A stretch of 50,734 nucleotides of DNA from Candidatus Loosdrechtia aerotolerans (GTDB lineage: Bacteria > Planctomycetota > Brocadiia > Brocadiales > Brocadiaceae): the NCBI GenBank assembly GCA_021646405.1, contig SOER01000020.1, forward strand, positions 1 to 50,734. Direction: 5' to 3'. Numbering within the stretch: position 1 is the first letter of the stretch; each line of letters begins with the position of its first letter. The translations under genes were made by a program, and so were the position numbers. The notes below the pieces were generated by a model. The model was given only the letters and a program-made list of their open reading frames with translations, did not search any database and was not told the DNA's origin. Positions 14,383 to 49,055 of this stretch are shown here, piece by piece.

Positions 14383-15537
14383 TTAATTTTGAATATGATT
14401 CACTGCAAGGTTATTCCTCGTCCAGGATATTCCTTTTTTCTCCAATATCTTCTTCCCATCACTATTTGTATTTATACCTATGAGCTCCATATCTGAATCA
14501 ACCATTATCTTAATAAGTTCCTCAAAGGTGACCTTAGGTTCCCAGCCCAGTTTCTCCTTTGCCTTAACAATATCTGCCTGTAAAATATTTACATCTGTTG
14601 GCCTAAAATATTTGGGATCTATCTCAATGAGGGTATCCCCAACTTTTATATGAGAATCTAAAGATGTGAGATGAGGACGCAAGGATTTTATAATACCCAC
14701 CTGGTTAACTCCTTCACCTTTCCATTCTATCTCAATGCCAGCATAGCTGAAGGCAGACTCAACAAATTCTCTTACCGAATGACTTTTCCCTGTACCTATT
14801 ACATAATCATCCGGTCTGTCCTGTTGAAGCATGAGCCATTGACATATCACATATTCAGGAGTAAAGCCCCAATCTCTCTTTGTTTCCAGGTTTCCAAGGT
14901 ATAACCTTTTCTGTTTTCCGGCTATTATTTGTGCTATCGCCCGGCTTATCTTTCTTGTTACAAAGGTCTCTCCCCTCCTCGGTGATTCGTGATTAAATAA
15001 TATGCCGTTACAGGCAAACATATTGTATCCATCTCTATAATTAACGGTCATCCAGTAAGCATAAACCTTAGCTGCCGCATAAGGGCTTCTCGGCTTAAAA
15101 GGGGTTTTTTCATTCTGTGGAGGCAGCGCGTCCCCAAACATTTCACTGCTGCTTGCCTGATAGAACTTAACCTTAATGCCACTTCTTCTGATAGCCTCCA
15201 GTATCCTGGTTGTACCCAGCCCTGTAATGTTTCCTGTAAATTCCGGCATATCAAAGCTAACGCGTACGTGACTTTGAGCCGCTAAATGGTAAATTTCATC
15301 TGGTTGAATGTTATAGATAAGATTGGTGATTTGGCCTGAATCCGAAAGATCGCCATAATGGAGGAAAAGCCGTACATTATATTCATGAGGATCCTAGTAG
15401 AGATGGTCTATTCTGTCCGTATTAAAGGTACTGGAACGACGAATAAGTCCGTGGACTTCATACCCATGAGATAAGAGAAATTCTGTCAGATACGAACCAT
15501 CCTGACCCGTAATTCCTGTTATTAATGCCTTTTTCAT
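14383..15537 (-). pseudogene. gmd: GDP-mannose 4,6-dehydratase interrupted by one amber codon
   Basis: Gmd converts GDP-mannose to GDP-4-keto-6-deoxymannose. Reading from the ATG at 15537 gives a normal N-terminus ([20 protein letters not shown]) with the GxxGxxG cofactor motif. At codon 48 a single TAG (15394-15396) interrupts the frame inside DHLY-stop-DPHEYN; this family normally has Gln there (HLYQDPH). The frame then continues intact to TAA at 14383, with [10 protein letters not shown] and the catalytic [12 protein letters not shown], for a total of 384 codons. The longest uninterrupted frame from an internal ATG (15249) lacks the cofactor-binding strand. It could be a recent point-mutation pseudogene (CAG to TAG), a suppressed stop, or a sequencing error. 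Confidence 0.87.
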
Positions 15538-22336: not shown

Positions 22337-23728
22337 TTACACCTGAACCTGATCCAGGATACCCGGTACAAAGGCGGTAAGATGCAACTGTTCCTTTATC
22401 GTCTCAGCAAAACCTAAGGCGATCTCTTCTTCACCATGGATTACAAAGACATGCTTCGGTCTTTTTTTGAACCTCCCGAGCCATTCGAGAAGTTCTTTAC
22501 GGCCGGCGTGGGCTGAAAGGCCGCCAATAGTATAAACCCTGGCTTTTACAGCAATATCCTCACCAAAGATTTTTACCTTTTTGGCCCCCTCAATAATTGC
22601 ACGCCCCAGGGTACCTTTGGCCTGATATCCCACAAAGATGATACTGCATTCCGGACGCCACAGGTTATGTTTCAAATGATGAAGGATCCGGCCTGCTTCG
22701 CACATCCCGCTCGACGATACAATAACAGCTCCGTTTCTCATCCTGTTGATCTCCTTTGACTCTTCAACAGACTCTGTAAACTTCAATGTATGGGTACTTC
22801 TGGAAAAATGTCCTTCCTTCATCAACTCCAGTGTTTCCTGGTCAAAGCATTCCGGATGTTTTAAGGTAATTCGTGTAGCCTTGTAGGCCATAGGACTATC
22901 AACAAAGACCTGAAGATGATTTAGCCTTTCCTCACGCGATAACTCGTTCAGCATATAAAGAACGTCCTGTGTACGTCCTACGGCAAAGGCAGGTATAATG
23001 ATATTACCACCCCTTTTTAAAGATTCCGACACGGCCGTGGCAAATTCGTCTCTCGTTTCGCTCATGCCCTTATGGTTTCTGTTGCCATAAGTAGATTCTA
23101 CAAAGACAAAATCCCCTTCCCCAATTTGGGCCCTGTCCCGAACTAATGGAAAGTCCTCCTGGCCGAGATCTCCTGAAAAAACAAGCTTCTTTTCCTCCGA
23201 ATCATCCTGTATCCATAATTCAACGATACCAGAACCCAGGATATGTCCCGCATCCTGAAATCTTACCCTCACCCCGTTACCCAGATCCACTACTTCGTTA
23301 TATGCTATATCCTGAAAATATGATAAACTGTTCGCCGTTTCCTGTACGGTATACAGCGGTTTAACAAGGCGTCTGCCAGCCCTCATTCGTTTTTTGTTTT
23401 CTGACTCGGCATCAAATTCCTAGATATAGGCCGAATCCAGCAACATAACGCCGCCTAAGTCTACCGTAGCACTTGTGGCGAGAATATTTCCTCTGAAACC
23501 CTCTTTTACCAGTTTTGGAATAAGACCTGAATGATCCAGGTGGGCATGGGTTAACAGGAGATACTGAACTTCTGAAGGTTTGAAAGGAAAGGGTTTCTTA
23601 TTTCTTTTCACATCATCGCCGGTACCCTGAAAGATACCGCAGTCAACTAAAATATTGGTCTCTTTTGTCTGGATATGAAAACAGGAACCAGTAACAGTTC
23701 GCGCCGCACCAACAAATTGAATTTTCAT
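22337..23728 (-). pseudogene. MBL-fold/beta-CASP nuclease interrupted by one amber codon
   Basis: The intact family hydrolyses RNA (YSH1/CPSF-like processing exonuclease). Starting at ATG 23728 (MKIQFVGAARTVTGSCF) the frame gives the metallo-beta-lactamase motif LLLTHAHLDHSGLI, then at codon 103 a TAG (23420-23422) within DSAYI-stop-EFDAE. Relatives commonly have SAHIQEEDAE here, so Gln is the expected residue. The same frame continues with FSGDLGQEDFPL, VESTYGNRNHKG, the beta-CASP domain, SAHAGRKELLEW and VIHGEEE to TAA at 22337. If TAG were read the product would be 463 aa, a normal length. No other damage is seen, so this is a recent mutation, a read-through gene or a sequence error. Confidence 0.85.
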
Positions 23729-47794: not shown

Positions 47795-48220
47795 TCAGGA
47801 AAAAAGATTCTCTTTTCTACGGTGACTTAAAAACGGGAATATTGGGATATCCTCCGGCTGAATCCAGACGATCTTGCCATCTTCCCATGACGCAACGGGA
47901 TTGCCTGCTTTTTTATGCTGAAGTAATGCTTCGTTAACAGCTTTAGACAAAGCTCTTGTTATTTTTTCTTTAGAAATATTTCTTTTGAATGCGGGTAACC
48001 GCTTGTCGGGTATCATCAAGTATTGATTCGGCTTTAGGTCCGCTCTGTCCTTGTGAGACAGAATTTGATAACCTTCTTCGTTTCTCAATTCTCTGACTCG
48101 GCGTGCCCATTCCACAGCGCCGCCGCTCGCTGCTTGAATATCACGAGATTCAACGACCTTTCCAAGGTTGGCGAGAAAGAATTCGAGGATAAGCTGCTTC
48201 GATCCCTTACGTCTAGACAT
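47795..48220 (-). CDS. Winged-helix remnant of an HNH restriction enzyme fused to a short tail, 141 aa
   Basis: The first 80 residues resemble the N-terminal winged-helix part of HNH-type restriction endonucleases next to methyltransferases (VEWARRVRELRNEEGYQIL, SHKDRADLKPNQYLM, FKRNISKE). The HNH domain that should follow NISKE is absent; the C-terminus instead reads ALSKAVNEALLQHKKAGNPV followed by SWEDGKIVWIQPEDI, which looks like a different small-protein module. It overlaps the methyltransferase gene by 8 bases. Probably an inactive restriction partner or a specificity/regulatory protein. The stop is TGA. Confidence 0.55.
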   Translation of the reverse strand: MSRRKGSKQLILEFFLANLGKVVESRDIQAASGGAVEWARRVRELRNEEGYQILSHKDRADLKPNQYLMIPDKRLPAFKRNISKEKITRALSKAVNEALLQHKKAGNPVASWEDGKIVWIQPEDIPIFPFLSHRRKENLFS

Positions 48221-49055
48221 GAAGGCTATGTTCTATTGCGTAATTGGCATATTCAGGATTTAGCTCAATCAGAATTGCATGCCTGTTCAAATCGTTTGCA
48301 ACAATTCCTGTAGTTCCTGATCCGCCAAAAGGGTCCAGGACTACGTCACCTTCCCTTGACCCTAATAGGATGCAGCGTCTAGCAAGTTCTCCAGGAAATG
48401 CAGCTGGATGACCATGACTATTTGGGTCGGCGCCCAATATCCAATAATTGCGAAGATTTGCTCCGGTTTCCTGGCGAACGGCTTTTGAATTGTAGTAATA
48501 TGACGGCGATTTCGCGAAGAGAAAAATCTCTTCTGTAGCATTTGTTGGACGATTCTTAACACTTTCAGGCATTGCAGTTTTTTTTATCCAGGTAATCTTG
48601 GACCGAAGTATCCACCCGTCCTCTTGCAGTGCAAAGGCAACTCTCCATGGAAGGCCCATTAAATCACGGTCTTTCAGACCCCAAACATCCGGGACTTTGC
48701 AATTCCGTTTCTGAATGAGCTTTTTTGTATTGCCAACCATGGCATTTGGACCACATTTTCCGGTTCCACCGTTGCGGGCATAACCGTCCCCGACATTGAG
48801 CCAAAGTGTACCGTCTGACCGAAGTTTTTCACGTACCTTACGAAAAACAGTAACAAGACTCTTAACATACAATTCAGGGGATGGTTCGGCGCCTATCTGA
48901 TCAGGGTGATCGTAATCCCGAAGGCCCCAATAAGGTGGGGACGTAACACAGCACTGTATAATTTCGTTCTCCAGTGTTGTCAGTACTTCCGCACAATCCC
49001 CTATCAGAACTTTGAGCCGGGCAGACTGCACGAGATTTAGTTTTAACTGCGCCAC
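48213..49055 (-). CDS. Site-specific DNA methyltransferase (N4/N6 amino type), 280 aa
   Basis: A beta-class amino-methyltransferase: the catalytic motif IV is TSPPYWGLRDYDHPDQIG near residue 38 and the SAM-binding motif I is DVVLDPFGGSGTTGIVA near 240, in the order typical of this class. The SPPYW form of motif IV favours N4-cytosine modification, though N6-adenine is not excluded. LPWRVAFALQEDGWILRSKITW and EEIFLFAKSPSYYYN are further family signatures. The start is GTG with AGGAGG 15 bases upstream. It forms an overlapping pair with the winged-helix gene. It stops with TAG (in-frame TAA two codons on). Confidence 0.9.
   Translation of the reverse strand: MAQLKLNLVQSARLKVLIGDCAEVLTTLENEIIQCCVTSPPYWGLRDYDHPDQIGAEPSPELYVKSLVTVFRKVREKLRSDGTLWLNVGDGYARNGGTGKCGPNAMVGNTKKLIQKRNCKVPDVWGLKDRDLMGLPWRVAFALQEDGWILRSKITWIKKTAMPESVKNRPTNATEEIFLFAKSPSYYYNSKAVRQETGANLRNYWILGADPNSHGHPAAFPGELARRCILLGSREGDVVLDPFGGSGTTGIVANDLNRHAILIELNPEYANYAIEHSLHV

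Follow-up and report, generated by a model that had tools for sequence, protein, structure and literature searches.

Dcm sites of Escherichia coli are a classical hotspot of C-to-T change, and such changes at CCWGG are expected to give amber stops only. In the lacI gene of E. coli, amber hotspots were reportedly traced by Coulondre et al. in 1978 to C-to-T change at Dcm sites, CCAGG becoming CTAGG. The locus described here resembles this case, as its TAG codons would have arisen in a C-CAG-G context and ambers alone are seen. It differs in that the source genome has no match to the cytosine-5 methylase family (PF00145), Vsr was not found there either, and the mutation is deduced from sequence. 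Consensus errors offer a second comparison: nanopore base-callers fail at the Dcm sites CCAGG and CCTGG (PMC6591954), and the errors are concentrated in these motifs in the way that the present ambers are found in CTAGG; the comparison presupposes a nanopore assembly and CCWGG methylation of the organism. In-frame TAG inside intact genes is also a property of pyrrolysine and amber-suppressor tRNA systems, which differ from the present case, where there is no synthetase and no CUA tRNA and TAG ends genes routinely. No report of amber readthrough in anammox bacteria was found in the literature searched.

Two interrupted genes and their relatives

The window, i.e., the whole stretch of 50,734 nucleotides analysed, is one contig (C12) of a genome of 3.26 Mb in 61 contigs that is 99.4% complete. 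The initial annotation described two long genes about 8 kb apart, each otherwise undamaged and each with one TAG, and this description holds: minus-strand translation recovers the nuclease frame of 463 codons, undamaged but for its single TAG, together with the gene for GDP-mannose 4,6-dehydratase (gmd), and the two ambers are separated by 8,026 bp (Table 1). Their closeness is weak evidence against chance, because the window was picked for containing both. Read through the stop, the nuclease frame is spanned by the Pfam domains Lactamase_B (metallo-beta-lactamase), Beta-Casp and RMMBL in that order, and the amber falls within the first of them.

Table 1. Coordinates of the interrupted genes, their stops and other features mentioned in the text (window positions unless a locus is named)
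Feature	Position	Strand	Basis
Beta-CASP metallo-beta-lactamase-fold nuclease frame, 463 residues, broken once	22337..23728	-	Translation and Pfam
In-frame TAG of the nuclease, codon 103, ATC-TAG-GAA (CTAGG)	23420..23422	-	Translation and context
ORF past the nuclease stop, 349 codons, ATG-initiated; reinitiation possible but unproven	22337..23386	-	
gmd, GDP-mannose 4,6-dehydratase, first amber-interrupted gene	14383..15537	-	TIGR01472, 547.7 bits vs cut-off 415
In-frame TAG of gmd, codon 48, TAC-TAG-GAT (CTAGG)	15394..15396	-	
PF01555 DNA methylase, SPPYW motif	48213-49055	-	
tRNA-Sec, anticodon TCA, source genome	L371 1501-1598		
Formate dehydrogenase, in-frame TGA, source genome	L170 411-413 (C33 about 60411)		
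Rhodanese-like gene, in-frame TGA, source genome	L295 9258-9260 (C22 about 109258)		
Vsr-like endonuclease and adjoining cytosine-5 methylase, G001	L258 1495-3158 (C1 about 3258049-3259712)		
Amber of the HAO-like octaheme gene, G001	L301 / L244 1187-1189 (C1 about 2401188)	-	
Amber of the beta-CASP paralogue, G020	L032 near 4475	-	

About 30 relatives of the nuclease, among them its orthologues from the family and order, contain no internal stop; the 28 orthologues found are 65-74% identical across most of their length and stop-free, and the nearest named relative (67% identity) belongs to a Planctomycetota MAG. The orthologue is missing from a genome of the same genus (G001) and from G003, and the nuclease is therefore dispensable in the group. 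Close relatives of gmd likewise revealed no internal stop, and in G001 the codon at the amber site is CTC. Each TAG had been taken to stand for Gln, a residue said to be common in relatives at the nuclease site. Gln is indeed found at each site in some relatives, namely 12 of 27 for the nuclease (His in the other 15) and 3 of 15 for gmd (besides Leu in 6, Ile in 3, and Arg, Thr and Val), but it is fixed at neither, so that conservation by itself does not identify the residue at either amber as Gln. The invariant columns of both genes have changed about as fast as in relatives, with no sign of relaxed selection. Since both genes keep this normal rate, the stops are young, an age that suits a new allele no less than an artefact.

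The CTAGG context and the origin of the stops

All four ambers found in the genus occur in the CTAGG context: those of the nuclease and gmd, and two that G001 has of its own, both as C-TAG-G. One of the latter interrupts a distant beta-CASP gene (GHILGSA-TAG-VL) and the other an HAO-like octaheme gene, a gene that is about 88-91% identical across genera. HAO-like octaheme genes are common to the nearest relatives and also occur in the source genome, which has CAG where G001 has TAG. Together with the Planctomycetota MAG that contains the nearest named nuclease relative, these genes suggest that the source organism is an anammox-type planctomycete. The reading is GAC-CAG-GGA in G005 and G012 and GAC-TAG-GGA in G001 (ATAGAC-xAG-GGATGT), the second C of CCAGG having become T. 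Among coding CAG codons, 7.8% in the source genome and 7.7% in G001 lie between C and G. If CAG contexts were random, four of four ambers in C-TAG-G would arise by chance with a probability of about 3.6e-5, and two of two within the source genome with one of 0.006; both figures are post hoc and presume an original CAG at each site, and it was the nuclease search that brought up one of the two G001 cases. When the methylatable C of CCWGG turns into T, the only stop codon that can result is TAG, from C-CAG-G or, on the other strand, from CC-TGG; this would account for the restriction to ambers.

The explanation that we favor, with a probability of about 0.6, is that recent, independent C-to-T changes at CCAGG left broken alleles of otherwise conserved genes, in which TAG acts as a stop. 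A single C-to-T change within CCAGG would have converted C-CAG-G to C-TAG-G separately in the nuclease and in gmd, and the new TAG would end translation early, leaving a broken allele of a gene that is conserved elsewhere. This supposes that both sites in the window were CAG beforehand, that the change exists in the cells, beyond the assembly alone, and that loss of the genes is tolerated. The explanation is supported by the stops themselves and their context, by the absent decoding machinery, by the use of TAG and of C-TAG-G as terminators, by the conservation of the two genes, and by the C-to-T change in the HAO-like gene. Counting against it, the lack of a cytosine-5 methylase and of Vsr leaves the classical Dcm route without its enzyme here, Gln is fixed at neither site, and CTAGG is under-represented in the genome overall. 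In CTAGG density, the window falls within the spread of the other contigs and shows no enrichment, and regional hypermutation was rejected for this reason. The initial annotation had offered a common source of error such as C deamination as an alternative to suppression. This fits better than suppression, given CTAGG at both ambers and at the two in G001, but it is weakened by the missing methylase. Possible causes are a spontaneous C-to-T change with the context arising by chance, a methylase encoded on an element outside the bin, and a base-calling error at modified CCAGG.

The last of these possible causes would make the stops an error of the consensus: the cells would have CAG, with T wrongly called in the assembly at a modified base of CCAGG. 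We regard this as rather unlikely. The known failure of nanopore base-callers at this motif speaks for it, as do the four of four ambers of the genus in CTAGG and the lack of any sign of decay in the nuclease and gmd. One of the four ambers lies in the highly conserved HAO-like gene, where a genuine nonsense change would be surprising, which for that case in G001 favors an artefact. Against it, no cytosine-5 methylase was found in the source genome, CTWGG is not in general excess, and the nanopore study does not give the errors as C-to-T (PMC6591954).

Several further observations concern methylases and short motifs in the two genomes. In G001, unlike in the source genome, a Vsr-like endonuclease gene adjoins a cytosine-5 methylase gene (Table 1). 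CTAG is strongly under-represented, with an observed/expected ratio of 0.35 in a 1.62 Mb sample of the source genome and 0.36 in G001, and CTTGG/CCAAG is among the lowest pentamers of the source genome, although a Vsr gene was not found there. The window encodes a DNA methylase of the PF01555 family with an SPPYW motif, and the most under-represented hexamer palindrome is CAGCTG (observed/expected 0.55 in the source genome and 0.42 in G001); the methylase is a candidate for a link with this scarcity.

Use and decoding of TAG

Readthrough of UAG by a suppressor or near-cognate tRNA that inserts Gln or a different amino acid, with both genes functional, appears quite improbable. It would be suggested by the presence of two otherwise intact genes (in the genus, four) that are conserved to a normal degree and have one amber each in a shared context, and by Gln at each site in some relatives. 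However, the amber suppression by a mutated tRNA-Gln hinted at in the initial annotation found no support in the decoding machinery. Among the tRNA genes above the Rfam cut-off, with anticodons read by ARAGORN, none of the 46 in the genome has a CUA anticodon, and a suppressor tRNA was rejected on this basis; the two tRNA-Gln genes have the normal anticodons CTG and TTG, and the release factor 1 gene is above cut-off and uninterrupted. Pyrrolysine decoding was rejected as well, as the PylSn domain has no match in the genome and PylSc only matches below 31 bits against a cut-off of 178. In G001, which has 47 tRNA genes, CUA was absent from those inspected (most, not all).

Genome-wide use of TAG likewise points to termination. 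Stops flanked by in-frame coding sequence were listed with a dicodon coding model, for which the long ORFs of the same genome served as training set, in several batches covering 1.62 Mb (half of the genome), of which 1.565 Mb lie outside the window; sensitivity, measured on random internal codons, was 83%. For the main TAG candidates the check was a read-through translation, for the others flanking sequence only. At this sensitivity, no further internal TAG survived inspection in the 1.565 Mb scanned beyond the window; the other candidates resembled ordinary neighboring genes with a common frame, such as gatC/gatA and the ATP synthase c and b subunits, and were set aside. Internal interruptions by any stop codon were few in the sampled half. 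TAG is the terminator of 170 of the 862 genes scored (~20%), a few of these counts being interrupted frames themselves, and C-TAG-G closes a few apparently intact genes, e.g., a KpsF/KdsD-like and a nitroreductase-like gene. TAG is a stop in this bacterium, without alteration of the genetic code, and suppression is not supported.

An amber shared among species was rejected too, because the orthologues are stop-free and no amber is common to two genomes; without a shared amber there is no conserved readthrough. Three apparent matches were discarded: the TAG of gmd in G019 does not lie within the gene, whose aligned frame is LYQDPHD, that of a beta-CASP paralogue in G020 reads CTG-TAG-ACG and is apparently at a Tyr position, and the stretch matched in G030 is frameshifted. 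The G020 paralogue amber lies outside CTAGG, and the N-terminal part of that paralogue is unmatched in frame.

In a narrower version, the genus would read UAG only in C-UAG-G, by an ordinary tRNA without a dedicated suppressor; this we consider very improbable. If true, ambers at former CCAGG sites would be tolerated even in a gene as highly conserved as the HAO-like octaheme one. Scarcely credible is the production of the nuclease as two pieces, with reinitiation at an ATG past the stop, which is found 11 codons on and heads a frame of 349 codons, as the amber cuts through the metallo-beta-lactamase domain, no relative is split likewise, and gmd offers no start codon within the first 48 codons after its own amber.

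Probable recoding of TGA and meaning of the amber pair

The source genome contains a tRNA-Sec with the anticodon TCA. A formate dehydrogenase gene (DQCART-TGA-HAPTV) and a rhodanese-like gene (FYCD-TGA-PNENTSAG; Table 1) each have an in-frame TGA where selenocysteine is expected. Judging from these genes, TGA is probably recoded in this organism. Recoding would thus show itself where it is present, and it excludes TAG. In the Scalindua profunda paper, selenocysteine is named in the reference list only.

No change of the genetic code is needed for a pair of amber-interrupted genes as striking as this one to arise. The flanking C and G, which turn the amber into CTAGG, provide a quick diagnostic for mutation of CCAGG or for a sequencing error at this motif, to be applied before a metagenome assembly is taken as evidence of recoding.
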